Below are positions 18,335 through 32,203 of a stretch of 64,000 bases of DNA, piece after piece. The translations under genes and the position numbers were made by a program. Location of the stretch: contig JAJYMY010000001.1 in assembly GCA_021786575.1 (NCBI GenBank), forward strand, positions 186,001 through 250,000. Reading direction: 5' to 3'. This DNA is from an archaeon (lineage in GTDB: Archaea > Thermoproteota > Nitrososphaeria > Nitrososphaerales > Gagatemarchaeaceae). How positions within the stretch are numbered: the stretch's first letter is position 1; each line of letters opens with the position of its first letter. The notes beneath the pieces were generated by a model that was not told the origin of the DNA, made no database searches, and saw only the letters and a list, made by a program, of their open reading frames with translations.

Positions 18335-18421
18335 CGTTGGAGGGTCACCCTCACGTCAGATATGCGTTGCGAGGTGAGGAGGGAGACTGATGAATCAGGA
18401 CGCCTGATCAGGGCACCGCAG

Positions 18422-18430
18422 GATTTTTAC
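18422..18430 (+). promoter_or_regulatory. TATA box of the peroxiredoxin gene
   Basis: GATTTTTAC lies about 24-32 bases before ATG 18454, implying a leaderless or nearly leaderless transcript. Confidence 0.5.
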
Positions 18431-18453
18431 ATGGCTTCCCCTAACGGGTTAGT

Positions 18454-18918
18454 ATGCTCAAAGTAGGAGACAAAGCGCCGAAGTTCGCGCTCTACGACAC
18501 AGACCTGAAGCTTAGGGAGTTGAAAGATTTCCTGGACGAAGGCCAAAGGACCATCTTGGCGTTCTATCCAGGGGCATTCACCGGCGTCTGCACCAAGGAG
18601 ATGTGCGAGTTCAGGGACATGCATGGAGAGCTCCAGAAGATGAAGGCTAAGACTGTGGGGATTTCAGTAGACCCGCCCTTCGCTAACAAGGCCTTCGCGG
18701 AGAAGTACGGGCTGACGTTCCCTCTCCTGAGCGACTTCAAACGTGAAGCCATCAGGGACTACGACGTCGTATGGAAGGACCTGGGCGGGATGAGCGGATA
18801 CGACGGCGCCAACCGTGCGGTCTTCGTCGTAGACGGGTCTGGCAGGATAGTGTACAGCTGGGTCGGCGAGAACCCAGGGAAATATCCTGACTTCGGCGCG
18901 ATAAGGAAGTCGCTCTAG
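18454..18918 (+). CDS. Peroxiredoxin (Bcp/AhpC-TSA family)
   Basis: 154 residues. The peroxidatic cysteine is in YPGAFTGVCTKEMCEF (PxxxTxxC pattern, Cys about 49). A second Cys four residues on gives the CxxxxC arrangement of alpha-type Bcp enzymes. The later TFPLLSDFKREAIRDYDV and NRAVFVVDGSGRIVYSW are standard for the family. It reduces hydroperoxides at the expense of thioredoxin-like donors. It converges on, and overlaps by 4 bp, the biotin carrier gene. Confidence 0.92.
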   Translation: MLKVGDKAPKFALYDTDLKLRELKDFLDEGQRTILAFYPGAFTGVCTKEMCEFRDMHGELQKMKAKTVGISVDPPFANKAFAEKYGLTFPLLSDFKREAIRDYDVVWKDLGGMSGYDGANRAVFVVDGSGRIVYSWVGENPGKYPDFGAIRKSL

Positions 18919-19421
18919 CGCAGCCGCATCAGACCCTGGCCGCGCTTCACCGTTTCACCTTCGTTCACGAGGATTTCGGCCACCTCGCCGTCGCGATCTG
19001 CCCTGACCGCGACCTCCATCTTCATCGATTCTATCATCACCAATGGGTCGCCGGCCTTCACCCGCTCTCCTTCCTTTACGAGGGCCCCGGTTACCCTCCC
19101 TGGCATGGGGGCCGCTACGACGCCCGCCTGCTTGTGAAGAGGTAGAAGGTCTGAGGACCTCTGCTCCATGACAGTCGCCCATGCCCGATATACCAGGCGC
19201 TCCCCGCTGATCACAAGGACCACGCGCTGGGGGGCGACATCCACGACGGTCACCTGGACTGGCTTGTCTGAGAACTCGGCGATGAATGAAGCCGGCTCGG
19301 TGCCATGTTTCAGCCTCAGTGTGTACCTGCGGCCGGCGACTGACGCCTCGTAGTCATCCCCAGACCGGACGATATCGACCGCGTACTTGGCGTCGTCACC
19401 GCTCAAGTCATAACGCGTCAT
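18915..19421 (-). CDS. accB: Biotin carboxyl carrier protein of acyl-CoA carboxylase
   Basis: 168 residues from ATG 19421. The C-terminal biotinyl domain has APMPGRVTGALVKEGERVKA and the biotinylation site VMIESMKMEV (Lys about 134). The N-terminal half is a separate domain seen in archaeal and actinobacterial-type carriers. It overlaps the end of the biotin carboxylase gene by 14 bp, so it is translated from the same message. It carries CO2 between the carboxylase and transferase subunits. Confidence 0.92.
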   Translation of the reverse strand: MTRYDLSGDDAKYAVDIVRSGDDYEASVAGRRYTLRLKHGTEPASFIAEFSDKPVQVTVVDVAPQRVVLVISGERLVYRAWATVMEQRSSDLLPLHKQAGVVAAPMPGRVTGALVKEGERVKAGDPLVMIESMKMEVAVRADRDGEVAEILVNEGETVKRGQGLMRLR

Positions 19422-20922
19422 AGTGCCTCTCCTTCTGTGACATCCGACGCTGTGCGGAACGGTGTTCTTGGCGCCTGGGTCCGCTGTGGCCCGCACCCGA
19501 TTCCAACAGTACGGCGGCTATCACCGCTCCCTTCGTGGCCAGGTCCGCCCGCTCGACCGCAGCCTGCTCGGAGAAAGCCTCCAGTATCCTGTTCTCCTGG
19601 AGGAACTCGACGCTAAGGTTCCATCTAGCGAACCCCTCGTGCGCGAGGATGAACCTCTGGAGGGGTATCGTCGTCTTGGGGCCCTCTATCTCGAACTCCG
19701 AAAGGGCGAGCGACATCCTCCTCCTGGCGTCCTCCAAGTCGGCCCCCCGAACCACGAGCTTAGCCAACAGCGAGTCGTAGTATTCCGGGACTATGTATCC
19801 CGGGTAGAGGGCTGTGTCGATTCTGACCCCGGCTCCCCCTGGGAAGAACAGCCTCTCGACCTTGCCGCTGGACGGGGCGAAGCCAGCGGTCGGGTCCTCG
19901 GCGTTTATCCTGCACTGAATCGCTGCCCCCTTGAGCTCGACGTCGTCCTGCCCATAGTCGATTCCCTCCCCGGCAGCTATCTCCAGCTGTTCCTTGACCA
20001 GGTCGACGCCCGCTCTCATCTCGGTTATGGGGTGCTCCACCTGCAGGCGGGAGTTGACCTCGATGAAATAGAAGTTCTGGTCAGCGTCCATTAGGAACTC
20101 AACTGTCCCCACGTTCTCGTACCCCAGCGCCTTCGCGAGCGTCACCGCGTGCTCCGCCACGCGCATCCGCGCCAGCTCGTCGAGCCCCGGGGCGGGGGTG
20201 ATCTCGAGCAGCTTCTGGTGCCTCCTCTGTATGCTGCACTCCCTTTCGCCGAGATGGATGACCTTCCCCCTCCCGTCGGAGACTATCTGCACTTCGATGT
20301 GACGGGCTGGCTTCACCAGTTTTTCTACGAAGAGCCCCGTCTTCCCCAGGGAGCGTTTCATCTCTGTCGTGGCAAGCCTGAAGGCCTGCACGAGCTGCCT
20401 GTCGTCTGATGCCTCTCTAATCCCCCTCCCCCCTCCACCAAAGGCTGCCTTGAGTAGGACAGGATACCCAATCTCCCGCGCGGCATCCAGAGCTCCTTCA
20501 AGGGTGTAGAAGACAGACCCGCCCCCTTCGATGACGGGTATCCCGGCCCCCTTCGCTATCCTCTTACAGTCTACCTTATTCCCGGCTATTACTAGAGTCC
20601 TCGCTTTCGGGCCAACGAACTTGATGCCCGCCTGTCGGCACTTCTCTGCGAGGTTCCAGTTCTCGGAGACGAAGCCATACCCTGGATGGAGGGCGTCGAC
20701 GCCGGCTTCTGCGGCGGCCTGGACTAGCTTGTCTATGTTCAGGTAGCTGTCTCCAGGGTCTGCGGAGCCTATGCGGAGGGCTCTGTCGGCGAGCTTTACG
20801 TGGAGAGCCTCGGCATCAACGTCCGAGTAGACGGCAACGGTCTTCACCCCGAGGAGCTTGCAAGTCCTGATTATCCGGACCGCTATCTCCCCTCGGTTGG
20901 CTATGAGCACGTTGTCGAACAA
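19408..20922 (-). CDS. accC: Biotin carboxylase subunit of acetyl/propionyl-CoA carboxylase
   Basis: 504 residues, start TTG, 6 bp behind the carboxyltransferase stop. ATP-grasp enzyme with FDNVLIANRGEIAVRIIRTC at the N-terminus, LHPGYGFVSEN (about 79), the glycine-rich loop AAFGGGGRGIREA (about 159), QRRHQKLLEI and FIEVNSRLQVEHPITE (about 286-301). It carboxylates biotin using bicarbonate and ATP. About 50 extra C-terminal residues beyond the core are basic and poorly conserved. Confidence 0.95.
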   Translation of the reverse strand: MFDNVLIANRGEIAVRIIRTCKLLGVKTVAVYSDVDAEALHVKLADRALRIGSADPGDSYLNIDKLVQAAAEAGVDALHPGYGFVSENWNLAEKCRQAGIKFVGPKARTLVIAGNKVDCKRIAKGAGIPVIEGGGSVFYTLEGALDAAREIGYPVLLKAAFGGGGRGIREASDDRQLVQAFRLATTEMKRSLGKTGLFVEKLVKPARHIEVQIVSDGRGKVIHLGERECSIQRRHQKLLEITPAPGLDELARMRVAEHAVTLAKALGYENVGTVEFLMDADQNFYFIEVNSRLQVEHPITEMRAGVDLVKEQLEIAAGEGIDYGQDDVELKGAAIQCRINAEDPTAGFAPSSGKVERLFFPGGAGVRIDTALYPGYIVPEYYDSLLAKLVVRGADLEDARRRMSLALSEFEIEGPKTTIPLQRFILAHEGFARWNLSVEFLQENRILEAFSEQAAVERADLATKGAVIAAVLLESGAGHSGPRRQEHRSAQRRMSQKERHYDAL

Positions 20923-20928
20923 CTGGCG

Positions 20929-22470
20929 TCACAGCTGGATGTTGCCGTGCTTCTTGGGGGGCCTGAATTCGCTCTTATTTGCCAGGGACTCGAAGGCTGA
21001 GACGAGCTTGGGCCTCGACATAGAAGGGGCGACCACTTCGTCGATGATCCCCCTGCTCGCTGCCACGTAGGGGTTGGCGAATTTCGCCCTATATTCCGAG
21101 ACCAACTGCTTCCTGAGGGCGGCGGGGTCAGGCGAAGCCTCAATCTCTTTCCTGTATATGATGTTGGTAGCCCCCTCCGGACCCATCACAGCGATCTCTG
21201 CTCCCGGCCAGGCGTAATTGACGTCGGCCCTGCTGTACTTCGAGCCCATGGCGCAGTATGCGCCGCCGTAGGCCTTCTTCACGATCAGAGTCACCTTAGG
21301 GACGGTCGCCTCGCAGTAGGCATACAGCAGCTTGCAGCCGTGGCGTATCAGTCCCCTCTGCTCCTGATCGGTGCCCGGCATGTAGCCGGGGACGTCTACG
21401 AGGGTAAGGATTGGGATGTTGAACGCGTCACAAAACCGCACGAACCTCGCGGCTTTGTCTGAGCTATCCACGTCGAGTGCGCCCCCGAGGACCTGGGGTT
21501 GGTTCGCCACGATCCCGATACTGTTGCCTGCGACCCGCCCGAATCCGATCATGATGTTTTGGGCCCACCCGGCCTGCACCTCCAAAAAACTGCCATCGTC
21601 CACGAGCCTCTCGACTATCTTCCTGATGTCGTAGGCGACGTACGGTTCGACTGGAGCCAGCGAGTCCATCTCTGGGTCCGCATCCACAGGTCCCTTCCAC
21701 TCGGCCGCGGGTGGGGTTTCCGTGTTGTTCTGGGGGAGATAGGAGAGGAGGGACCTGATGGACTTCAGGCATGCGCTCTCGCTTTCATACATGAAATGAG
21801 CTACGCCGCTCTGAGTGGCGTGTATCATGGCTCCTCCCAGGTCCTCGAAGGTCACGGTCTCCCCTAGAGCGGCCTTCACCACGTCGGGCCCGGTCACGAA
21901 CATCTGGCTAGTCCCCTTGACCATGAAGATGAAGTCTGTCATCGCAGGGGAGTAGACAGCGGCGCCGGCGCAGGGTCCCAGTACTGCGCTGATTTGAGGT
22001 ATGACGCCAGAAGCCAGCGTGTTCCTGAAGAACAATTCGCTCACCCCCGCAAGGCTGGAGACCCCCTCCTGGATTCGCGCCCCCCCTGAGTCGTTCAGGC
22101 CTATTACCGGCGCGCCGTTCTTCAAGGCTAGATCCATGACCTTAGATACTTTCTTCATGAGCGCCTCACCCAGGGAGCCGCCGAAGACTGTGAAGTCGTG
22201 GGCGTAGACGTAGACGAGCCTTCCGTCTATCTTCCCGTATCCTGTCACGACCCCGTCGCCAAGGGGGTGCGACCTGTCCATGCCGAGGTCAGCGGACCTG
22301 TGGGTGACAAATTTGTCGAACTCGTTGAACGTCCCTTGGTCGAGGAGAAGGTCGATTCTCTCGCGCGCTGTCATCTTCCCCTTCTTGTGCTGGTCATCGA
22401 TCCTCTGCTGGCCGCCGCCGAGTTCTGCGGCCCTGTTCATCTCGTCGAGGTTTCTTTCGGCCCCACTCAA
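20929..22470 (-). CDS. pccB: Acyl-CoA carboxylase carboxyltransferase subunit (propionyl-CoA carboxylase beta type)
   Basis: 513 residues, start TTG. The crotonase-like carboxyltransferase has KMTARERIDLLLDQGTF (N-terminal), GLNDSGGARIQEGV (about 124-137) and GPCAGAAVYSPAMTDF (about 166-181). The second half has VDVPGYMPGTDQE and KKAYGGAYCAMGSK. In archaea this single-chain transferase carboxylates acetyl-CoA and propionyl-CoA. With AccB and AccC it forms a complete complex. Substrate could feed fatty-acid-free C3 metabolism or a 3-hydroxypropionate route. Confidence 0.95.
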   Translation of the reverse strand: MSGAERNLDEMNRAAELGGGQQRIDDQHKKGKMTARERIDLLLDQGTFNEFDKFVTHRSADLGMDRSHPLGDGVVTGYGKIDGRLVYVYAHDFTVFGGSLGEALMKKVSKVMDLALKNGAPVIGLNDSGGARIQEGVSSLAGVSELFFRNTLASGVIPQISAVLGPCAGAAVYSPAMTDFIFMVKGTSQMFVTGPDVVKAALGETVTFEDLGGAMIHATQSGVAHFMYESESACLKSIRSLLSYLPQNNTETPPAAEWKGPVDADPEMDSLAPVEPYVAYDIRKIVERLVDDGSFLEVQAGWAQNIMIGFGRVAGNSIGIVANQPQVLGGALDVDSSDKAARFVRFCDAFNIPILTLVDVPGYMPGTDQEQRGLIRHGCKLLYAYCEATVPKVTLIVKKAYGGAYCAMGSKYSRADVNYAWPGAEIAVMGPEGATNIIYRKEIEASPDPAALRKQLVSEYRAKFANPYVAASRGIIDEVVAPSMSRPKLVSAFESLANKSEFRPPKKHGNIQL

Positions 22471-22554
22471 TTCTACCAGTCTTCAGTTCGGCCGTTAAAA
22501 GCATGGGGTCAGTAAGACGCGAGAAACAGGTTTCCATAGTCTATTGTCGAACCG

Positions 22555-23295
22555 CTAGAATCTCTCCCGAAGCCGCTCGAGGTCCTCAGCGCTGACGGCT
22601 ACGGTCTCCCCTTCGAGAGAGACAACCAAGTTTCCTTCGGCATCGATGCCTTCCGCTACGCATGAAAACTGGTTTTCGCCTGTTTTCAACTTGATTGAGA
22701 CCTCCTTGCCTATGGTCCCGACTTTGCTCGACCAGTCCTCCTTCATGTCCTCGCCTGATTGCCAGCGCTCGTACGACGCTGAGAACGAGTTGAGGATCGA
22801 ATGCATGACGTTAGGGATTTCGACCTCCTTCCCCAACTCTTGGGCGATGCTCGTCGATTCTGTCTCCAGATCACGACCCCCGGAGGGAAGCGCGTTACAG
22901 TTGACCCCCACTCCGACTACGACCCAGTCGACCTCAGCCCCGCGTGAGGCTGCCTCGGCTATCGCTCCGCCAAGTTTTCGTCCCCTCATCGTTATGTCGT
23001 TCGGCCACCTGATCGTCGGCGCGAGCCCTGTCGCATCTTTGATTCCATCGACGGCAGCGGCCGCTGCGATTAACGAGGTAAGTTCTGGCCGGCGGAGGCA
23101 CCCGGGACGTAAGATGAACGACATGTAGAGCCCTCCGACAGGGGAGACCCACGTCCTCCCCATGCGGCCGGTCCCCGAGGCCTGGGCGGATGCGATGATG
23201 GTCGTGCCTTCGGGCGCCCCCAATGCAGCTCGCTCCCTAGCCACCTGTTGTGTCGAGCCCACCGAGTCGAACTCGATAAACGACCAGCGAATCAT
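22555..23295 (-). CDS. birA: Biotin–[acyl-CoA-carboxylase] ligase
   Basis: 246 residues from ATG 23295 (an upstream GTG at 23316 is also in frame). The ligase core has FDSVGSTQQVARERA, the biotinyl-AMP loop SGTGRMGRTWVSP (about 39-51; the family motif is GRGRxGRxW), RWPNDITMRGRKLGGAIAE and VVVGVGVNCNA. A C-terminal SH3-like domain follows. There is no N-terminal DNA-binding domain, so it is an enzyme only. It lies 85 bp upstream of its substrate operon on the same strand. Confidence 0.93.
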   Translation of the reverse strand: MIRWSFIEFDSVGSTQQVARERAALGAPEGTTIIASAQASGTGRMGRTWVSPVGGLYMSFILRPGCLRRPELTSLIAAAAAVDGIKDATGLAPTIRWPNDITMRGRKLGGAIAEAASRGAEVDWVVVGVGVNCNALPSGGRDLETESTSIAQELGKEVEIPNVMHSILNSFSASYERWQSGEDMKEDWSSKVGTIGKEVSIKLKTGENQFSCVAEGIDAEGNLVVSLEGETVAVSAEDLERLRERF

Positions 23296-23393
23296 TGTTT
23301 GTAGTCCCAGGACCACTCCGTTATCCCCTTTGCCCTGGAGGAGAGAGAACGACTTAAGACATAAAGGCGGTCAGGAGTCCTGCCGTACCTAGT

Positions 23394-23469
23394 GGCCCTG
23401 GTGGTGCAGCTTGGTTAGCATTGGAGGCTGTGGACCTCTCGATCGTGGGTTCAAATCCCACCCAGGGCC
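23394..23469 (+). tRNA. tRNA-His (GTG)
   Basis: Cloverleaf: G-1 at 23394, acceptor GCCCTGG paired with CCAGGGC, D-stem GTGC/GCAT, anticodon stem GGAGG/CCTCT with loop CTGTGGA (anticodon GTG), T-stem GTGGG/CCCAC with loop TTCAAAT, and discriminator C73 opposite G-1, the hallmark of tRNA-His. No intron and no encoded CCA. An A/T-rich CTTAAGACATAAA lies about 30-45 bases upstream. Confidence 0.93.
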
Positions 23470-23700
23470 CCTATATCTGGGCTCAAGTATTTCGCCGTAA
23501 TCTTCTGACCATCGGGAGCCAGATGGTGTTGGCTACACGATAGCCCGGAGCCCTGATGACGTTGAGAAGTCTCTCGTGGAGGCTGCGCGACATCCCGGCA
23601 CGCCACGGTTCGAGCTTCCTTAGCGCGGCCATCCGCTGCTGTCAACCCTCACGGCGTCGTCAGATGATTGTGGCGAAATTTGTGCATGTGTCTGGACGAT

Positions 23701-24405
23701 TCATGGGACGCACGTAGGCGCATATGACGGAGTTACACCGCAATAGGTCCACGCATAGACCGACCCATTGTAGGCTGGCAAGTTGTCTGCCCCGACCTGG
23801 GCCACCTGCCATGATGCTGTGCTGTTGTAAGTCCAGAGGAACCAATACATGCTGTTGGAGTTCGAGACGCCGTCTATCCCCGATACTAGGTGTTCCTGAT
23901 ATTCTGGATACCACTGAGCCTGGAGGTTCCCGTTGCTAACCAAGACCGTGGTCACATACATATTCCATCCAGGTTGAACTTGCGTCCCATTGTACCAGTG
24001 CTGAGTTCCGTTCCCGAAGTCGATCAAGACGTCCACCCTGTAGAATGAACTCTTTGCTGGTGAGAGACTGAGATATTCGCTCCATAGCTGGGAGAGTTCG
24101 GTGCTCGCTTGCGCGTATATCGGGAGTGACGTGTTTACTACGGCAACTGCCCCCACCAGCAGAGAAAGCGTCTTATTGATCAGAGAAAGGGATGAGTTGT
24201 AGTTAGAGGCCAGCTGGTTGTACTGGTTGGTTGCGGTGACAAGCTCGCTAACATAGTTATCCTTGGACTGGCGGACCTGATTGTATTCATAATAGTAATA
24301 CGCGCTCGCCGTTACGCTGACTATCAGCAATGCGACCAAAACTAGGGCCACGCCATAGGTGGGTTTCGAATTGGCGGTCAACGGTAGATTGGATGGTTTA
24401 TCCAT
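23701..24405 (-). CDS. Membrane-anchored DUF4430-type (transcobalamin-like C-terminal domain) extracytoplasmic protein
   Basis: 234 residues: one N-terminal membrane helix (about 19-39, VALVLVALLIVSVTASAYYY), a Gln/Asn/Ser-rich helical stalk with several NxS/T sites, and a C-terminal domain (about 123-234) with WNMYVTTVLV, GIDGVSNSNSMYWFLWTYN and a WTYCG ending. That repeat of W/Y-containing strands resembles DUF4430, the domain related to the cobalamin-gripping end of intrinsic factor. The start is ambiguous: ATG 24405 lies inside an inverted repeat behind a TATA box, so TTG 24381 may be the real, leaderless start. Domain assignment is by eye. Confidence 0.65.
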   Translation of the reverse strand: MDKPSNLPLTANSKPTYGVALVLVALLIVSVTASAYYYYEYNQVRQSKDNYVSELVTATNQYNQLASNYNSSLSLINKTLSLLVGAVAVVNTSLPIYAQASTELSQLWSEYLSLSPAKSSFYRVDVLIDFGNGTQHWYNGTQVQPGWNMYVTTVLVSNGNLQAQWYPEYQEHLVSGIDGVSNSNSMYWFLWTYNSTASWQVAQVGADNLPAYNGSVYAWTYCGVTPSYAPTCVP

Positions 24406-24410
24406 CCAAT
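24388..24410. promoter_or_regulatory. Inverted repeat (operator candidate) at the DUF4430 gene promoter
   Basis: A perfect 9-bp repeat, ATTGGATGG-TTTAT-CCATCCAAT, lies directly downstream of the minus-strand TATA-like TTTAATAT (24411-24418). It covers the expected transcription start. A related TGGATG/CATCCA palindrome occurs at 25395-25415. Confidence 0.6.
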
Positions 24411-24535
24411 ATTAAATGTTATCGACGTGAATCCCACGGCCATCTCGTCAACCCCGGGAGAGCATGGGATGACAAGTGACAATCAGTCCTTGAAACAGCA
24501 CTTATTCTGGGTCCATGCATGAAATAGGGTAAAAT

Positions 24536-25183
24536 ATGACAAGCCCCGTGGAGTATCAGTTGTCAGTTCTCGCTTCTGTCTTGAAGGCCGATCGCTCGAG
24601 GGCTCCCGGGCCTGTACCTACGTACACTTCTGCGCACGTCCTGCTGGTGCTGCTTACGATCGGGGATTCTGGGGCGATTGGCAGGCAGGCGCTTTCGACT
24701 GAGGCTGGCCTGGGGGAGGGAGCGATAAGGACCGTGATAAAATGGCTCAGGGCTGATGAATACATTACGGTCAACGCAAGCGGGTGTCGACTGACTCCAA
24801 AGGGAAAGCACGCTTACGCCGAACTGAAGAGGCTGATTCCGAAGACGTTGGTGCTTCCGCGGACGACGCTGACCGTAGGTGAGGTACAGGTAGCGGCTCT
24901 CATAAAGGGAAAGTCCGACCAGGTGAGAAGCGGAATAGAGCAACGAGACTCTGCGATAAAGGCGGGCGCGTCGGGGGCCACCACGTATCTCTTCAGAAGG
25001 TCGAGGTTCGAAGTCCCTGGCTCCCCAGGAGACGCAGAGAAGTTGTTCCCTACTGAGGCTTGGAAAAAACTCAAGACTGGGCTTGAGCCCGAGGAGGGTG
25101 ACGTGGTGATAGTCTGTGGTTCAGGAGAGAAGCATGTCTCCCTAATAGGCGTGCTCAGTGCCGCTCTAACCTTGCTAGGCTAG
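24536..25183 (+). CDS. Winged-helix transcriptional regulator with DUF4443 domain
   Basis: 215 residues. The N-terminal domain is a winged helix (VLLVLLTIGDSGAIGRQAL, then EGAIRTVIKWLRADEYITV and the wing SGCRLTPKGKHAYAEL, about 34-100). The C-terminal part (about 105-215) matches the DUF4443 pattern: LTVGEVQVAALIKGKSDQV, IEQRDSAIKAGASGATTYLF and DVVIVCGSGEK. DUF4443 is an archaeal sensor domain of unknown ligand. Divergent from the DUF4430 gene, same direction as the S component; it is the obvious candidate to bind the inverted repeats at both neighbours. Start ATG 24536. Confidence 0.8.
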   Translation: MTSPVEYQLSVLASVLKADRSRAPGPVPTYTSAHVLLVLLTIGDSGAIGRQALSTEAGLGEGAIRTVIKWLRADEYITVNASGCRLTPKGKHAYAELKRLIPKTLVLPRTTLTVGEVQVAALIKGKSDQVRSGIEQRDSAIKAGASGATTYLFRRSRFEVPGSPGDAEKLFPTEAWKKLKTGLEPEEGDVVIVCGSGEKHVSLIGVLSAALTLLG

Positions 25184-25383
25184 GCACGTAACCGGTTAAG
25201 ACAAGAACGATTAGTCCCCTGGGCGCATAACTGCATCGACCGCCATTGAGGGATTCGTCATTGAGCCCCAACATCAGCTTCCTCGGTCAAAAGCGAGGAG
25301 TCCGCACGTGGAGCGCCTGACTTCTTTGGATCTTTCTTCCTGACCGCTGGTCGACCCTAGCAATGAGCGTAGTAATTTGCAGC

Positions 25384-25390
25384 CTTTTAT
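25384..25390 (+). promoter_or_regulatory. TATA box of the ECF S-component gene
   Basis: CTTTTAT lies 26-32 bases before TTG 25416. It places the transcript start downstream of the in-frame ATG at 25377, which therefore cannot be used. Confidence 0.55.
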
Positions 25391-25394
25391 GTTT

Positions 25395-25415
25395 GGCTGG
25401 ATGAACCATCCAGCC
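25395..25415. promoter_or_regulatory. Inverted repeat (operator candidate) at the S-component promoter
   Basis: Perfect 9-bp palindrome GGCTGGATG-AAC-CATCCAGCC between the TATA box and the leaderless start. A regulator bound here would block transcription. It shares TGGATG/CATCCA half-sites with 24388-24410, but the half-site spacing is 3 rather than 7. Confidence 0.6.
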
Positions 25416-26039
25416 TTGGAGATAATCCGGTTGCGGGGCACGCAGAAGGTGGCAATGGTGTCCCTGCTTTCCGCCCTCGCCATAGCCACCGACTACGCCA
25501 TGCTACCACTGGCGAACATCAAATTGATGGACACTGTAGTATTCGTGTCTGGACTTGTATTTGGGATGGGGGTAGGAGCCTCTGTAGGCGGTCTCACGTG
25601 GCTGGTGTACGGCTCAGTTAACCCGTTGGGCTCCGATAGCGGGCTGTTGCTGATCATTCTCATAATGTCAGAGATGGTTTACGCGTTCTTAGGGTCCATA
25701 GCTCGGAGATCGTTTAGTGAAGGCATGGGCACCCCCACAAAGAGCGTATACTGGGGATGTCTCGGTCTGATTGGCGCATTCTTCTACGATCTGGTCACGA
25801 TAATGGTGCCAACCATGTTAGCTGGAGCGTCAATCAGAGTCGCGGCAGCATCTCTTGTCCTTGCGGTGCCGTTCATGCTCGCGCATGAAGTCAGCGATTT
25901 TGTGTTTTTTGCGACGGTCGGACCACTTCTCGTCAGCACTATACTTAAAGTGGTCAAACCGCGGATATCCAAACGATCAACAGTCATGTTGCCAAACGAC
26001 CATACCCACCACGTGGGAAGGGGCGCAAGCAGTTCGTGA
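25416..26039 (+). CDS. ECF transporter S component-like integral membrane protein
   Basis: About 207 residues from TTG 25416, with five or six membrane helices. ALAIATDYAMLPLANIKLMDTV and VSGLVFGMGVGASVGGLTWLVYGSVNP follow the pattern of substrate-binding S components: first helix, then a G-rich helix before an 'N-P' loop. No ATPase or T subunit is adjacent, so it would use a shared energising module such as the one at 55.5-58.6 kb. Linkage to a DUF4430 protein suggests a corrinoid or similar cofactor as cargo. That is inference. Confidence 0.65.
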   Translation: MEIIRLRGTQKVAMVSLLSALAIATDYAMLPLANIKLMDTVVFVSGLVFGMGVGASVGGLTWLVYGSVNPLGSDSGLLLIILIMSEMVYAFLGSIARRSFSEGMGTPTKSVYWGCLGLIGAFFYDLVTIMVPTMLAGASIRVAAASLVLAVPFMLAHEVSDFVFFATVGPLLVSTILKVVKPRISKRSTVMLPNDHTHHVGRGASSS

Positions 26040-26185
26040 GCATCTGTCGGACATACTACGCCTGAGGAGAAGCAGCGCGTCTTGGTGACAGGTTTCCAGT
26101 CGAACAAGAGCAGGGAGCACCAGGTTGTGCGGGACATAGAGACCGAGCACTGTAATCCTTCGGTTTCATGAGCGCGGAGCCGAGG

Positions 26186-26238
26186 GTGCTTTGAGCGGAC
26201 TCCGGCGTCGAAGCCGCCTACCAACATCCTCAAAGCAC
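26186..26238 (+). promoter_or_regulatory. Hairpin in the folP leader
   Basis: GTGCTTTGAG (26186-26195) pairs perfectly over 10 bp with CTCAAAGCAC (26229-26238). The 33-base interior holds a smaller GGC/GCC stem. It ends 20 bases before ATG 26259 of folP. It may be an RNA regulatory element or a protein-binding palindrome. Confidence 0.4.
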
Positions 26239-26258
26239 AGGGAGGGATCACCACGACG

Positions 26259-27146
26259 ATGGAAGCCACGGCAAGGTTGGGCGAAGTATCACTCGGACCA
26301 GACTTCCCCGTCCGTATCATGGCCGCCGTTAATCTGAGCCCCGAGTCGTTCTACAAAGGTTCGGTCGCTAAGAACGCCCGAGAGACCGCTTCTATTGCTA
26401 TGAAGGCCGTCGACGCCGGTGCAGACATCGTAGACATCGGCGCCATGTCGACCGCCCCTTATCTGCGCAACGAAGTCTCTGAGGAAGTCGAATCGACCCG
26501 CGTAGCGGAGGCGCTGCGGGCGACGGCGGGGATAGGAGTCACGATTTCAGTAGACACTGTCCGTGCCTCAGTAGCCGCCTTGGCCCTCGATCGCGGCGCG
26601 TTGGTCATAAACGACGTGTCAGGGCTCAAAAACGATCCGAAGATGGCTGACGTCATCAAAGAGCGTGGCGCTTCCGTCATCGCTATGGCGCGTTCGACGG
26701 AGCCGTCCCGACTGGGACCGATTCCCAGGGTTCGTCAAGCGCTGGGTGAGACTATGAGAATTGCAAGGAAGGCAGGGATAGATGATAGGCTCGTCGTGTT
26801 GGACCCGGGCATAGGCTTCTTCAGGGAAGAAGGGAACGGGAAGGCATACTCCCGTCAGGACGTCGTGCCCTGGTACCAGTGGGATTGTGAAGTGCTTGCA
26901 AACCTGAGGCAATTGGAGTCACTACACAGGCCTCTGTGCGTCGGGCTGTCAAGGAAGTCCTTTCTTGGGAAGATCCTGAAACTGGAGAGCCCTGACGACA
27001 GGCTTTGGGGGTCCCTGGCTGCCACGGCCATAGCCGTAAACAACGGAGCACGAGTGATAAGAACCCATGATGTAAAGGAGACAGGTCACGCTGTCAGGGT
27101 CTCTGAGGCGATAATGAAGAGGCGAGGTCGAAATCGGACCTCTTGA
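26259..27146 (+). CDS. folP: Dihydropteroate synthase
   Basis: 295 residues. The TIM-barrel pterin-binding enzyme shows MAAVNLSPESFYKGSV (the archaeal version of NVTPDSFSDGG), ADIVDIGAMSTAP, ISVDTVRASVA, VINDVSGLKN, VVLDPGIGFFRE and LCVGLSRKSFLG. It joins the pterin pyrophosphate made by FolK to an aminobenzoate. It converges on folK and overlaps it by 53 bp at the 3' ends. A 10-bp hairpin lies in its leader. Confidence 0.93.
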   Translation: MEATARLGEVSLGPDFPVRIMAAVNLSPESFYKGSVAKNARETASIAMKAVDAGADIVDIGAMSTAPYLRNEVSEEVESTRVAEALRATAGIGVTISVDTVRASVAALALDRGALVINDVSGLKNDPKMADVIKERGASVIAMARSTEPSRLGPIPRVRQALGETMRIARKAGIDDRLVVLDPGIGFFREEGNGKAYSRQDVVPWYQWDCEVLANLRQLESLHRPLCVGLSRKSFLGKILKLESPDDRLWGSLAATAIAVNNGARVIRTHDVKETGHAVRVSEAIMKRRGRNRTS

Positions 27147-27612
27147 GAACCTGTTTGGAAGTCTCCAATTCATCTATGAGCCGTGATACGCTCTTACCCA
27201 AGACAGGATGAACCAGGTCGGGCCGTACCTCCCTGAGGGGGACTAGGACGAAGGGCCTCTCTGTAATCTTGGGATGAGGTACCTCGAGCCCTGGCTCGGA
27301 GATGACCTCGTCGCCATAGAACAGGATGTCCAAATCGATGATTCTTGGACCATATTTCACCGTACGTTGCCTCCCCATTTCGGCCTCGGCTGTCTGTAAC
27401 TCGCAGAGCAGCGCTCGAGGTGTCAAATCAGTCTCGATGACGACGACGCAATTGAGGAACGGGCGTTGATTCTCGTAATACATCGGCTCAGTCTCGTATA
27501 CGGATGACATCCTGGCCAGTTTTGCCTTCCGACCAATCATACCGACTGCTCTCCGGAGATTGCCTTCCCTATCTCCGACGTTGGTCCCAAGCGCTATGAT
27601 TGCTTCGGCCAT
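27094..27612 (-). CDS. folK: 6-hydroxymethyl-7,8-dihydropterin pyrophosphokinase
   Basis: 172 residues with bacterial-type HPPK signatures: IIALGTNVGDREGNLRRAV, SSVYETEPMYYENQRPFLN and GPRIIDLDILFYGDEVI (the magnesium-binding DLD, about 89-91), then VPHPKITERPFVLVPL. It transfers pyrophosphate from ATP to the pterin. It follows folB by 6 bp. Many archaea use the unrelated MptE instead, so a bacterial-type FolK here is a possible transferred gene. Confidence 0.93.
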   Translation of the reverse strand: MAEAIIALGTNVGDREGNLRRAVGMIGRKAKLARMSSVYETEPMYYENQRPFLNCVVVIETDLTPRALLCELQTAEAEMGRQRTVKYGPRIIDLDILFYGDEVISEPGLEVPHPKITERPFVLVPLREVRPDLVHPVLGKSVSRLIDELETSKQVLKRSDFDLASSLSPQRP

Positions 27613-27618
27613 TTACGC

Positions 27619-27996
27619 TTACGAACTCCTCTCAATTTTCACCCCGATTGAGGGTTCGCTTGAATACTTCGCCTTGCGCGCCTTCACTGTGACTTTTTCC
27701 ACCCGGTCGACCTTAAGCGCAAGCGCGGCGATTCCTTCTGCAAGACCCTCCAACAGCTTGAACTCTCTCTCCGACGCAAACTGCGATATTCTGCGCAGCA
27801 TATCTTTGTAGTCGAGCGTGTCGCCGAGGTTGTCGCTTGTCCCTGCCGGCTTGAGGTTGATTGCGAGGGTAATGTCCATCAGGATTTCCTGCGGAAGCAA
27901 CCTTTCTTCGTCTGTCACGCCGACCCTGCACTTGAGACGGAGATTATCGATGAAGATCCTGTCGCCCAACGACGCCGTGCTCGAGAGCCCCGTCAC
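27619..27996 (-). CDS. folB: Dihydroneopterin aldolase
   Basis: The FolB tunnelling fold is clear from DRIFIDNLRLKCRVGVTDEE, PQEILMDITLAINL, DTLDYKDMLRRISQFASERE and FKLLEGLAEGIAALAL (with the catalytic region). The frame is open to an ATG at 28143 (174 residues), but the extra 49 residues do not resemble FolB. I therefore favour GTG 27996, giving 125 residues, the family's normal size. First gene of a folB-folK pair, which with folP covers the middle of folate synthesis. Confidence 0.85.
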   Translation of the reverse strand: MTGLSSTASLGDRIFIDNLRLKCRVGVTDEERLLPQEILMDITLAINLKPAGTSDNLGDTLDYKDMLRRISQFASEREFKLLEGLAEGIAALALKVDRVEKVTVKARKAKYSSEPSIGVKIERSS

Positions 27997-28143
27997 TAAA
28001 AGCCCTTCGACCTGGGGGATGGCGAGTAACCCGCATGCGAAGTGCGCATACCACGCAACACCTACGGTCATCCCTTCACGACTCTGGTTGGAGAAACGCT
28101 GCAGGTGGTGCAGAGCTTCGAACCTCTGTAGGGCAGATAGCAT

Positions 28144-28432
28144 GTCTGGTGCGAGGGCGAACGTAAACGCTGACGCGCAAGGCCTCGGTTTGTAGGAATG
28201 TCGAGGCCTATTTCATTGTTGTAGCATCAAGTCCTTCTCAGAGCGGGAGGGCGCCTCCCCTATGTTGCTCACAACATATATTCGACGACGCGCCTGCATT
28301 CGGACGCTAGCAGGCAGGGGAGCTTGCGATACTCAAGCACAGCCTTAGCATCCAGAGGCTGCCCCCCCATATCTAAGTCAAGCATTGGAGGTGTGACGCA
28401 CGCTCCTTAACGTCGAACAGCCAACTTGCCAG
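28144..28432. other. Hairpin-rich intergenic region upstream of folB
   Basis: No gene. In 28180-28360 there are six short perfect inverted repeats in a row: AGGCCTCG/CGAGGCCT (28180-28209), GGGAGG/CCTCCC (28245-28259), TATGTTG/CAACATA (28261-28278), GCCTGC/GCAGGC (28292-28315), GCTTG/CAAGC (28322-28338) and AGCCT/AGGCT (28341-28360). A TATA-like GAATATATG lies on the minus strand near 28280. It may hold a structured RNA or the folB leader. Confidence 0.45.
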
Positions 28433-28876
28433 TCACGTCCCCTTGTAGCAGAAGTACGGATACCCCCCGTTCACCATCCCCACCGCCATTTCGACTATCC
28501 TTTCAGACACCTCCTTCCACTTCGAATCCCAGTCAATCCCGTCAACCACGAGCTCTTTCTCGTCCCCACTCCTCGAAGGGACTTGCTTCCAGAGCGCCCG
28601 GCCCTGGAACGGCTTCACGATGCGAACTTGCCACTTGTCGCACTTCGCGGCCCTGCCTTCTGACCTGAAGTAATGGCATGAGGTGCAGAACCTGGACAGC
28701 CAGATTATCTCCTTGGTCCGCTTAACTGATTTGCCTATTTCCTCGAGGAGGCGCTCAGACTCCCTGCGTATCATGTCTGCGAGCTCCTTCTGCCCTTGCT
28801 CGGTGTTGGTGTAGTACTCGGGATCCCTGGATAGCGCCAGCCACCAGCTTACGTATTCCTCCGCTTCCTCGCTCAA
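28433..28876 (-). CDS. Hypothetical protein with CxxC motif
   Basis: 147 residues, start TTG. Not recognised. The N-terminal half is helical and acidic (SEEAEEYVSWWLALSRDPEY, then a charged helix). The centre has a probable metal site, SRFCTSCHYFRSEGRAAKCD (Cys/Cys/His/Cys, about 62-80), and another Cys near the C-terminus (GGYPYFCYKGT). It could be a small zinc- or iron-binding protein. Monocistronic; a CTATTTATCC promoter-like element lies about 65 bases upstream on its strand. Confidence 0.65.
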   Translation of the reverse strand: MSEEAEEYVSWWLALSRDPEYYTNTEQGQKELADMIRRESERLLEEIGKSVKRTKEIIWLSRFCTSCHYFRSEGRAAKCDKWQVRIVKPFQGRALWKQVPSRSGDEKELVVDGIDWDSKWKEVSERIVEMAVGMVNGGYPYFCYKGT

Positions 28877-28969
28877 GGTGACGATATGCCTCGTTCCCCG
28901 CTACTAAAACCGCTCGGCCGCCCCACTGCCTCAAGGAACGGATAAATAGAGAAAGGGACCGAAACTAAC

Positions 28970-29052
28970 GGTCTGACACGCAGCGTGCTACGACGGGCGA
29001 TCTGGACTGGCCTGAAAGGCCGGGATGATGACTTCATTGCTGCGTGTCGGCC
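28970..29052 (+). ncRNA. Candidate structured RNA (long hairpin)
   Basis: GACACGCAGC (28975-28984) pairs perfectly with GCTGCGTGTC (29039-29048) over 10 bp. It encloses an inner GGCC-TGAAA-GGCC hairpin (29009-29021) and an ATGATGA sequence like a C' box at 29024-29031. A GGATAAATAG promoter-like element lies about 30 bases upstream. It sits in the gap between two genes transcribed on the other strand. The class of RNA is not identified. Confidence 0.35.
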
Positions 29053-29054
29053 AA

Positions 29055-29696
29055 TCACGCGACCTTCGAGATGCGAGAAAGTCGGGCTGGGGAGTCATCC
29101 CTGTTGAGTTTCATGTAGAACTTGTTCAAGCGCTCGATTGTGGCAGATACTGTGGTGAATTCTACGCCAGCCTCCTTCATCACTACCAGCGCTCTGGTCC
29201 CGTCTCCCAGCTTTGCATCCACTGCCCTGACGCAGTCCTCCAGCAAGAACACCCTGAATCCAGCACGGCGGGCGTCCAGGGCGCTCTCCTTGACGCAGTA
29301 ATCGGTGGTCAGACCCCCTATGTACATCTCGTCGACCCCCAGTCTTTTCATCGCTCCTTCCAGGCCGGTCCCCTCGAAGCCGGAGTAGGCGTCCTTTAGA
29401 GGGTCGTCCCCCTTTCTGAAGATGGTAGCCCCAGCGGGGACCCTGAGGTCGGGGTGGAGCTTTGCTCCATCGGTCCCTTGGACACAGTGCCTCGGCCAGA
29501 CGCCGCCCTGGCTTTGGAAGGAGACGTGGTCGGGCGGGTGATAGTCCATGGTGAAGAATGTCGGCAACCCGAACTTTGCGAAGGTCCCGATGACGGCGTT
29601 GAGCCGCGGGACTACCTTGTCACCCCCCTCGACAGCGAGAGCACCCCCCGGGCAGAAGTCAACCTGGACGTCGACCACCACTAACGCAGGGTGCAA
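29055..29696 (-). CDS. pncA: Nicotinamidase (isochorismatase family)
   Basis: 213 residues, start TTG. The catalytic triad is visible: Asp9 in VVVDVQVDF, Lys94 in IFRKGDD, and Cys133 in GGLTTDYCVKESALDA. Metal-site residues lie in MDYHPPDHVSF (about 50-60), and WPRHCVQGTDGAKLHP is a nicotinamidase hallmark. It makes nicotinate from nicotinamide. It follows pncB by 5 bp, so the two steps of nicotinate salvage form one operon. The C-terminal about 20 residues are an unusual basic extension. Confidence 0.92.
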   Translation of the reverse strand: MHPALVVVDVQVDFCPGGALAVEGGDKVVPRLNAVIGTFAKFGLPTFFTMDYHPPDHVSFQSQGGVWPRHCVQGTDGAKLHPDLRVPAGATIFRKGDDPLKDAYSGFEGTGLEGAMKRLGVDEMYIGGLTTDYCVKESALDARRAGFRVFLLEDCVRAVDAKLGDGTRALVVMKEAGVEFTTVSATIERLNKFYMKLNRDDSPARLSRISKVA

Positions 29697-29701
29697 CTGC
29701 G

Positions 29702-30922
29702 TTATCTCCAGACGATGGCAGGGGTCGCCCCGCCGAGTTGGTCCAGGTCATCCCTGATTCTTGCTCTGATAGCTTCGATGCCTCGGAAGCTTTCCACAGG
29801 CTTCCCGTCCTTCAGGAACTGCCTCAGCATGGGAGTCGACCCTCTAGGCCTTGGCGAGCCCTCCAGCGCCACGGTGTCCTTGAAGCCCGCGGCCCTGTAG
29901 ACCACCTTTCGCCCTCCCAGCCCGCCCCTCTTCGCCCTGAACTCCTTCTTCTTTCCCACCTCGACCTCAACTATCTTCGCGCTCAAATCGATGACTGGAG
30001 GATAGGCGACCGCCGTCCCTACACCGTAGCCGTCGACTATGGGATTGAGCTTGACTATCGCTTCTTCGTCAAGTCTCCCGGAAGCTATGATCTTAACGTC
30101 ATTCCCCCCGCGTATGTCCAGCTCCCAGCGGACCTCTTGGGCAATCTTGGTGAAGTCCCCACGCCTCGACGCCGGGGTGTCCAGCCTTACCCCCCAGAGC
30201 TTAGGTCCGAGGACCTCGAAGGCCTTGATGGACTCTGCCTTCTCGTCCCAGAAAGTGTCGACGAGCGCGACGCGGGGTATGCTCCTTGGTATTGTTTCGT
30301 CAAAGAGGCGCCAGGCCTTCTCCTGGCTCCCCAGTATCTGGACGAGGGCGTGTGGCATCGTCCCGGACGGCTCGAGGCCCAGAAGTTTTGCCCCCAAGAC
30401 GTTTGAGACGCCGTCGAAACCAGCGACATAGCACGCCCGCTCGACCAAAGGAGCCAGGGCCGGGTGCACCCTCCTGGTGCCGAAGCTGAGGAGGAGCTTC
30501 GAGCCCGCGGCCTGCCTGAACTTCGCGGCCTTCGTCGATATGCTGGTAGACGAAGAGAGGAGGCCGAGCAGTGGGGTCTCGTACTCTACGAAGTCAGAGT
30601 ACTTCCCCTCGATGATGAGTAGCGGTTCATAGATGGCCGTGCTTTTGTCCGCCAAGAAGACAGACCCCTCGTCGAAGGCCCAGACGTCCACCGGAAGCCC
30701 TTCCAGCAACTTGACAGCCTCATAGACACCGGTGAGGACCCCCCAGTTGTCGGGGTAGGGGACGTCCCGTGCGAAGACCTCCATGACCACCCGTGAATCG
30801 ACGTTGTTCCGCCTGAGGACCTTCTTCGTATGAAGGAAGTAGGCGTCGGTGGTCGCGGCAGTCCTGATCTCTTTCTCCGTGGCCATCCAGAAGAGCCGGT
30901 CGTCCAGGTCGGTGCGTGGCAT
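29702..30922 (-). CDS. pncB: Nicotinate phosphoribosyltransferase
   Basis: 406 residues from ATG 30922. Recognised by TDAYFLHTKKVLRRN, the SFGTRRVHPALAPLVERACY segment (about 148-167), GFDGVSNVLGA, the Asp/Gly phosphoribosyl site in GVRLDTPASRRGD, and IIASGRLDEEAI followed by GYGVGTAVAYPP. It converts nicotinate and PRPP to nicotinate mononucleotide for NAD synthesis. Operon with pncA. The length agrees with archaeal homologues. Confidence 0.93.
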   Translation of the reverse strand: MPRTDLDDRLFWMATEKEIRTAATTDAYFLHTKKVLRRNNVDSRVVMEVFARDVPYPDNWGVLTGVYEAVKLLEGLPVDVWAFDEGSVFLADKSTAIYEPLLIIEGKYSDFVEYETPLLGLLSSSTSISTKAAKFRQAAGSKLLLSFGTRRVHPALAPLVERACYVAGFDGVSNVLGAKLLGLEPSGTMPHALVQILGSQEKAWRLFDETIPRSIPRVALVDTFWDEKAESIKAFEVLGPKLWGVRLDTPASRRGDFTKIAQEVRWELDIRGGNDVKIIASGRLDEEAIVKLNPIVDGYGVGTAVAYPPVIDLSAKIVEVEVGKKKEFRAKRGGLGGRKVVYRAAGFKDTVALEGSPRPRGSTPMLRQFLKDGKPVESFRGIEAIRARIRDDLDQLGGATPAIVWR

Positions 30923-31026
30923 CGGGACTTGGGAAAGGACCGGCCCGCAAAAGGGTTTCCCTTGGTCGCGGGGTGGAGAAGGGCGACTAACCCTTAAACG
31001 CGGAAGACGTCAGGGCGGGAGCCGGT

Positions 31027-31119
31027 GGGCCGGTAGTTCAGCGGTACGAACGTCCGCCTCGCACGCGGAAGAACCCCAAAAGGGCTCCAAGGTCGGGGGT
31101 TCAATTCCCCCCCGGTCCA
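31027..31119 (+). tRNA. tRNA-Ala (CGC) with a 20-nt non-canonical intron
   Basis: Acceptor GGGCCGG/CCGGTCC, D-stem GTTC/GAAC, anticodon stem TCCGC/GCGGA with loop CTCGCAC (anticodon CGC), T-stem GGGGG/CCCCC with loop TTCAATT, discriminator A. Between the anticodon stem and the expected variable loop AGGTC are 20 extra bases (31070-31089) containing a CCC-AAAA-GGG hairpin. They are read as an intron at position 43/44 or 44/45. The alternative, an expanded variable arm, is unlikely for tRNA-Ala. No encoded CCA. Confidence 0.85.
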
Positions 31120-31210
31120 CCTTTAGCGAACTGATTCGTTTGGGTTCGTGAAGAAAGTAGTTGCCATGAAGGGGGCAGGCGGCGACGCCTCGGCGTTTGT
31201 CACCAAACGT

Positions 31211-32203
31211 CTAATCAGGCGGCTTAGCTTCGTTGTAGGCAGGTATCGGCTCAAGAGGCTCTGTCTCATAAAGCCCGAGCTGCTTGCCCAAGTCGGCCCT
31301 CAGCCCCTTGTACCTGTTCCTCACGGTGACCTCGGTGACGCCGGAAGCCTCTGCTATCTCCTTCTGCGTCTTTACCTCCCCCTCCATCACCCCTGCAAGG
31401 TAGAGTGCTGCTGCCGCCAGCCCCATCGGGGACTTTCCTGCGGAGATCTCCCTCTCCTCGGTTATCCTCACTATCTCGATGGCTTTGCGAGCGACCTTCT
31501 CTGACAGCCCTACCTTAGAGGCTATCCTGCTGACATTCCTGGCCGCGTCGGCAACGGGCATTGTCAAGTCCATCTCTCTCAGCAGAATCCGGTAGTCCCT
31601 GGCTACAGACTTTTTCTGTAGGTTGTTGGCCGCCGCGATGTCCTTGAGGGTCCTGGGAGTCTCGGTGTCCCTCATGGCCGCATAGAGCGCTGCTGCGGCA
31701 ATCCCGATTATGGAGCGCCCTCTGAGGAGCCCCCTATCGAGCGCCTTCCTGTAGATGTAGGCCGCCCTCTCACTCACCGCTTGGGACGTGCCGAGCTTGT
31801 CAGCCATCTTCTCCAGCTCGCGCAGAGCGATGCTGAGGTTCTTCTCCTGGGCCCCGAAGGCCGGAGAACGGTTGTCCCACCTCCTGAGCCGGTCGATGGT
31901 GGTCCGCATAGGCGAAGCGAAGGACCTGCCTGAGGCGTCCCGGTTCGAGCTGCCAATCATGGTGGAGAGGCCCATGTCCCTGTACGTGATGGACGTCGGG
32001 GCGCCAACACGGGCCCTGTCCTGACCTTTCTCGTCGCCGAAAGAGCGCCACTCCGGCCCTTGATCGACGGACTTCTCGGTTATGACGAATCCGCAGTTGC
32101 CGCATGTAAGCTCACCGGTATTGACGTCCTCGACCAGCAACCTCTTGCCACAATGAGGGCACCTGTCAGAGACTTGGAGCGCCGAAGTTCTAGAATATCT
32201 CAT
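31211..32203 (-). CDS. tfb: Transcription initiation factor TFB
   Basis: 330 residues. The N-terminal zinc ribbon is CPHCGK to CGNCG (C-x2-C, C-x2-C, about 14-35), followed by the B-finger region with GPEWRSFGDE. Two cyclin repeats follow (about 125-205 and 220-300), each with the GIAAAALYAAMR or GLAAAALYLAG helix. The C-terminal HTH VTEVTVRNRYKGL contacts the BRE. ATG 32203 is chosen because the TATA box at 32234-32242 puts the transcript start a few bases upstream. General factor that recruits RNA polymerase to TATA/TBP. Confidence 0.95.
   Translation of the reverse strand: MRYSRTSALQVSDRCPHCGKRLLVEDVNTGELTCGNCGFVITEKSVDQGPEWRSFGDEKGQDRARVGAPTSITYRDMGLSTMIGSSNRDASGRSFASPMRTTIDRLRRWDNRSPAFGAQEKNLSIALRELEKMADKLGTSQAVSERAAYIYRKALDRGLLRGRSIIGIAAAALYAAMRDTETPRTLKDIAAANNLQKKSVARDYRILLREMDLTMPVADAARNVSRIASKVGLSEKVARKAIEIVRITEEREISAGKSPMGLAAAALYLAGVMEGEVKTQKEIAEASGVTEVTVRNRYKGLRADLGKQLGLYETEPLEPIPAYNEAKPPD

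Follow-up and report, generated by a model that had tools for sequence, protein, structure and literature searches.

The locus described here occupies positions 23701-26039 of the window, that is, of the whole 64,000-nucleotide stretch of archaeal DNA that was analysed. It contains three genes and two palindromic operators, and each operator sits between a TATA box and a start codon, one for a DUF4430-like gene and the other for an ECF S-component gene. The features are as follows.

23701..24381, minus strand: DUF4430-like membrane-anchored surface protein (probable start TTG 24381; longest ORF from ATG 24405)
24390..24408, minus strand: operator 1, 19-bp site TGGATGGATAAACCATCCA, in the promoter of the DUF4430-like gene
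about 24410..24417, minus strand: TATA-like box of the DUF4430-like gene, TTTAATA, read from the sequence
24536..25183, plus strand: DUF4443 winged-helix regulator, proposed cobamide-responsive repressor (PF14544 and CggR_N profile matches)
25385..25391, plus strand: TATA-like box of the S-component gene, TTTTATG, read from the sequence
25394..25412, plus strand: operator 2, 19-bp site TGGCTGGATGAACCATCCA, in the S-component promoter
25416..26039, plus strand: ECF-type S component, proposed cobamide transporter subunit (longest ORF from TTG 25377)

The product of the central gene matched PF14544 over its C-terminal domain (E=3.7e-23, 81.8 bits versus a cut-off of 27) and CggR_N over the winged helix in front of it (E=6.6e-9, 35.8 bits versus a cut-off of 30). 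It is related in sequence to PH0730 (PDB 2P8T, E=4.3e-9), and its predicted model (mean pLDDT 74) aligned to that structure with a TM of 0.66. The surface protein consists of an N-terminal hydrophobic helix, a coiled-coil-like stretch and a C-terminal DUF4430-type domain. Its ORF start at 24405 falls within the palindrome; since the geometry of TATA box, site and start is conserved, the gene probably starts later, at TTG 24381 (226 aa), and the S-component gene likewise at TTG 25416. The first-pass annotation had identified the 234-residue protein as DUF4430. The reading 23701-24405 gave no Pfam match of its own, but the relationship stood through intermediates, as 14 of 20 aligned family members match PF14478 (best 6.1e-17) and the bridging relatives range in identity from 75% down to 22%. 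Short versions of the protein are present in more distant families. A single-sequence structure model (pLDDT 38) was too low for use in a fold search, and the DUF4430-family profile searched against PDB returned mainly coiled-coil or helical chains; the best matches fell within the helical part, and transcobalamin was not among them. In transcobalamin-type proteins, DUF4430 forms the C-terminal region (PMC4350170).

The gene at 25416..26039 encodes a small multi-span membrane protein whose matches to PF12822 (E=0.006, 17.0 bits versus a cut-off of 30.7) and PF07155 (E=0.026) are both below cut-off, and it is proposed to be S-component-like on its membrane topology, the weak match and the family context. 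Throughout the family its orthologues are neighbours of DUF4443 and DUF4430, and elsewhere in the class genes for ECF-type ATPases have the same site in front of them; no EcfT/EcfA energising module was found in the neighbourhood examined of this 49%-complete assembly. With the Pfam matches below cut-off, it is the context that suggests its substrate. A nearby cluster in the window, at 18915-23316, holds genes for acyl-CoA carboxylase (carrier protein, biotin carboxylase, carboxyltransferase) and for a biotin ligase that has no DNA-binding domain.

The two palindromes reported in the first-pass annotation were recovered exactly at 24388-24410 (ATTGGATGG-TTTAT-CCATCCAAT) and 25395-25415 (GGCTGGATG-AAC-CATCCAGCC), and the TATA box it had placed beside each was seen as an AT-rich box directly upstream of both. 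The annotation had objected to its own reading that the half-site spacing differed (7 versus 3); the two repeats had been taken in different registers, and the spacing is identical. When read in gene direction, TGGATGGATAAACCATCCA (24408-24390) and TGGCTGGATGAACCATCCA (25394-25412) differ at 2 of 19 bases, therefore the objection falls away, and both palindromes are copies of one 19-bp site, TGGHTGGATNATCCADCCA. A search of the window at three or fewer mismatches to this family consensus returned the two sites and one overlapping register, while 100 dinucleotide shuffles searched in the same way gave a mean of 0.19 matches and never 3. A scoring matrix built from 93 sites in other genomes gave 31.5 for operator 1 and 27.2 for operator 2 (1 mismatch to consensus each); the next-best independent place in the 64 kb scored 2.2 and the highest score in 60 simulated 64-kb sequences was 17.8, the absolute scores being optimistic because the training sites were chosen by the same consensus. 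No further independent site was found in the 64-kb window by the consensus and matrix search. The two palindromes are not due to chance. As the annotation had noted, the motif is missing from the promoter of the window's DUF4443 gene; a search for a B12 riboswitch at 18000-32000 found none. Operator 1 is kept in relatives L003-L005, L007, L101, L102, L109 and L145, and operator 2 in L101, L102 and L005.

Within the window's family, a DUF4443 match was present in 40 of 46 genomes and the site (one mismatch or fewer) in 33 of 46, with the reversed pattern in 1. In many loci of the family, DUF4443 is divergent from an operon running from the S component to DUF4430, and one palindrome lies in the shared promoter, such as TGGCTGGATTATCCAGCCA in G019 and TGGATGGATTATCCATCCA in G040; the window and its close relatives have this operon broken into two parts, each with a site to itself. 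Two comparisons with related genomes that the annotation had proposed came out positive: the three genes co-occur, usually in this divergent arrangement, and the palindromes are conserved upstream of orthologues. In G022 the S/DUF4430 locus is on a different contig from DUF4443 and the site is still present. Of 81 DUF4443 genes, 26, from several families, have the site (at most two mismatches) no more than 400 bp away; L012, L015, L020 and L021 have DUF4443 without a linked site. In G156 and G153, DUF4443 paralogues (L128:8433-11792, L114:8312-11049) adjoin FecCD/BtuF-type and ZnuABC-like transporter genes and may sense other ligands. In genus g4 (L103:8999-9646, L132, L133, L135) there is a second paralogue of the S component, which carries a site of its own and adjoins genes named by eye as thiolase-, acyl-CoA-ligase- and acetoacetyl-CoA-synthetase-like.

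The site was present in 54 of 300 genomes of the class, with ammonia oxidisers almost never having this form. For target assignment, 94 distinct sites, which are most of those listed, were fetched without selection by target. A recognised target family, nearly always cobalamin-related, follows 83 of them, and 11 had no recognised target assigned. The S component accounted for 36, DUF4430 for 9 and an ECF ATPase with its membrane partner for 8; HemA, BtuF, CobT, CobD, CbiA, CbiM, NrdD and NrdA were also found, as was a hemA-cbiXC arrangement. Among distant ORFs used as control, 26 of 388 matched the target set, compared with 83 of the 94 sites, a comparison that is partly circular in that the reference was drawn from site targets. 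NCBIfam and Pfam searches of representatives identified HemA (4.5e-120), CbiM (8.4e-90), CobT (2.6e-119), CobD (1.2e-91) and CbiE (1.3e-35), together with a CbiX-CbiC fusion, class I NrdA, NrdB, NrdD (NRDD) and CobB/CbiA. In different genomes the site thus precedes a number of independent cobalamin genes, as in a cobalamin regulon. Class I and class III ribonucleotide reductases need no B12, and it is a mark of B12-status regulons, as in bacterial B12 regulons, that such reductases share control with B12 uptake or synthesis. Their presence under the site therefore points to cobamide as the ligand.

Several further genes recur beside sites of this B12 type. An asparagine-synthase-like protein is found beside BtuF or DUF4430 genes (L258:7551-8567, PF00733; L259:4347-5465; L102:4019-5026; L105:3435-4418; L145:325-1326) and is possibly a cobamide salvage or amidation enzyme. 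In family f9, a radical SAM protein lies under or next to the sites (L240:5494-6324, L244:3364-4128), and in two genomes (L242:2731-4991, L250:5070-7264) the site is followed by alcohol-dehydrogenase-like and glycosyltransferase-family-3 genes, the latter of TrpD/thymidine-phosphorylase type, which are possible lower-ligand or salvage enzymes. In L265, L266, L268, L270 and L271, a double ECF-type ATPase is divergent from a membrane protein without Pfam match over one shared site, and the pair is probably a divergent cobamide transporter.

AmoA was found in 10 of 10 genomes tested from families f2, f3 and f4, and was absent from the window's family and the other families tested. In 20 ammonia-oxidiser loci, DUF4443 adjoins the cobalt transporter gene CbtA (profile matches CbtA 2.4e-59, CbtB 2.2e-9), with a related palindrome, TTGGATAAACCATCCAA or TTGGATAAATCATCCAA, between DUF4443 and CbtA in many of them; DUF4443 in this group is divergent from cbtBA. 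The exact pattern TTGGATAAAYYATCC occurred at 72 places among the matches listed, in 52 of 201 genomes, with a few matches to the reversed control. In 20 regions with such sites, fetched for target assignment, the targets included cbtBA distant from DUF4443 (L316, L318, L320, L325, L326), a NiCoT transporter, a CbiX-like chelatase and an RcnR/CsoR-like gene, and several regions had no clear target. The sites at L308:4463, L310:4651, L311:2142 and L315:4174 precede this small RcnR/CsoR-like metal-sensor gene, which suggests cross-talk between B12 and cobalt/nickel control.

The corrin-ring gene cbiC was found in 0 of 14 genomes of the window's family, compared with 8 of 8 ammonia oxidisers. Methylmalonyl-CoA mutase was present in 15 of 15 high-quality family genomes and was not found in the window's 49%-complete assembly, which itself encodes an AdoCbl-dependent ribonucleotide reductase. 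Since cbiC is absent and B12-dependent enzymes are present, the family probably imports cobamide (B12). The acyl-CoA carboxylase encoded at 18915-22470 is a possible source of substrate for methylmalonyl-CoA mutase.

Nearly all of the 94 distinct sites are closely preceded by a TATA-like box, and from the first base of the site it is typically 18-26 bases to the start codon. This geometry fits a mostly leaderless archaeal transcript, in which a protein bound to the site would cover the transcription start. The fixed distance to the start codon also puts the palindrome in frame with many targets, several of which would then begin with a conserved N-terminal peptide (W-M-D-Y-P-S), and the palindrome might accordingly be read as coding sequence or as an RNA hairpin instead of a DNA operator. 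We give this reading almost no chance, and codon choice and reading frame led to its rejection. The codons in the site are frozen at rare choices, GAT in 58 of 60 (26% background) and CCA in 59 of 61 (16% background), counts that are about half independent because palindromes were scored on both strands. In L261 the frame that starts at the ATG of the palindrome meets TGA at once and the BtuF gene starts in another frame, the TATA spacing places the transcription start at or after the 3' end of the palindrome, and the identical palindrome precedes unrelated proteins. It is just as hard to credit that the ligand is another vitamin such as biotin or folate/pterin, as the neighbouring BirA/acyl-CoA carboxylase genes (18915-23316) and folP/folK (26259-27612) might suggest; in most relatives these genes do not adjoin the DUF4443-S-DUF4430 cluster, and the target lists spoke against such a ligand, with 0 of 94 sites assigned to such a gene and 11 of 94 having no assigned target.

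Two other readings accept the regulon and differ on what is sensed or what binds. DUF4443 might sense cobalt ions, with B12 genes following indirectly via the cobalt supply, in keeping with CbiM under a site in L246 and with most assigned ammonia-oxidiser sites, which precede CbtBA, NiCoT or the RcnR/CsoR-like gene. We consider this unlikely, as BtuF, CobT, CobD, HemA and the B12-independent ribonucleotide reductases track B12 status, and a family without cbiC has little need to gauge cobalt. That the sites are B12 operators bound by another transcription factor, with DUF4443 merely a linked gene or target, is very unlikely in our judgement: DUF4443 is not adjacent to a site in every genome, but in several families the gene for this winged-helix protein is divergent from a promoter that carries the site, and the ammonia oxidisers show the same layout with another target, cbtBA, and a related palindrome.

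Taken together, sequence conservation shows a B12 regulon, in that the site was observed along with its preservation in relatives, the genes that it precedes and its linkage to DUF4443. Linkage and fold point strongly to DUF4443 as the predicted protein that binds the site; its ligand would be cobamide and not cobalt, and it would act as a repressor by blocking initiation. We therefore consider it highly likely that DUF4443 is a cobamide-responsive repressor of this regulon and that the window holds the uptake branch. The proposed repressor would be of one-component type, sensing cobamide (vitamin B12) sufficiency through its C-terminal ligand domain and binding DNA through the N-terminal winged helix. 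In its cobamide-bound form it would occupy the 19-bp palindrome between TATA box and start codon and stop transcription initiation, and when cobamide is scarce it would leave the palindrome. In the window it would control two separate promoters, that of the ECF S component for cobamide uptake and that of the membrane-anchored, transcobalamin-type DUF4430 protein, which may serve as the partner of the S component by capturing extracellular corrinoid. Other lineages of the class would use this operator to govern corrin biosynthesis, the uptake of cobalt, BtuF-type uptake and ribonucleotide reductases that do not depend on B12, and in ammonia oxidisers a shorter form would govern cobalt transport. 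The annotation had suggested a compact uptake system under DUF4443 control, with a corrinoid as a possible substrate. The comparative evidence favours this suggestion, and the predicted system is larger than it described, being a class-wide B12 regulon that includes the ammonia-oxidiser cobalt transporter.

We lean towards a broader proposal, in which DUF4443 would be the ancestral B12-sensing factor of the class that contains the ammonia oxidisers. It would bind cobamide directly in the C-terminal domain and switch the uptake of cobalt, the synthesis of corrin, the import of cobamide and B12-independent ribonucleotide reductases, with a transcobalamin-like surface receptor taking part in the import. 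This role may not extend beyond the class, because in the Thermococcales loci seen DUF4443 (PH0730 family) adjoins pyrF and not a B12 gene, and no TGGAT palindrome was found at Thermococcales cobS loci (n=32). If the DUF4443 reading is true, archaea, including ocean ammonia oxidisers, would gain a protein-based B12 switch, and the regulon would consist of a named protein, a defined operator and a directly testable gene list. The reading would also give a function to DUF4443, a domain of unknown function whose structure has been solved (2P8T), and would make archaeal DUF4430 proteins candidates for capturing cobamide. As Thaumarchaeota are among the major ocean cobalamin producers (PMC8123684), a switch over their cobalt uptake bears on B12 supply.

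In the literature searched, DUF4443 was mentioned nowhere, and no work on archaeal DUF4430, nothing on 'CBL-box' and no published regulator for this B12 regulon were found. The CBL-box reportedly comes from Rodionov et al. 2003. The predicted cobalamin regulon of Pyrococcus is listed as 'CblrR (unknown)' (PMC10746257), and the Pyrococcus CblR/CBL-box regulon is also recorded in RegPrecise. It resembles the present case as an archaeal cobalamin regulon with a DNA site, its regulator being unnamed there; it differs in that a regulator family is proposed here and a different class is concerned. We do not claim DUF4443 as the Pyrococcus CblR regulator, for which the Thermococcales gave no support. 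PH0730 of Pyrococcus horikoshii, the solved member of the family, is like the window's DUF4443 in sequence and fold, and its entry title gives no function.

Control of cobalamin biosynthesis is treated in a review mainly in terms of riboswitches (PMC8123684). As is generally known, bacterial cobalamin riboswitch regulons (RF00174 and relatives) have the same kinds of target, including B12-independent isozymes, whereas the present system is predicted to consist of a protein and a DNA operator, not an RNA. The transcobalamin/intrinsic factor C-terminal domain (DUF4430, PF14478) is the domain family to which the surface protein belongs via intermediates (PMC4350170); unlike those proteins, the window's protein is membrane-anchored and without the large N-terminal domain, and its cobalamin binding is putative. 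RbkR (riboflavin) and ThiR (thiamin) are archaeal vitamin regulators (PMC10746257) and, like DUF4443 in its proposed role, exert one-component control of archaeal vitamin genes, but DUF4443 is of a different protein family and has no sign of enzyme activity. The one-component vitamin repressor is thus known as a kind, while the protein family, the operator and the regulon proposed here appear new.
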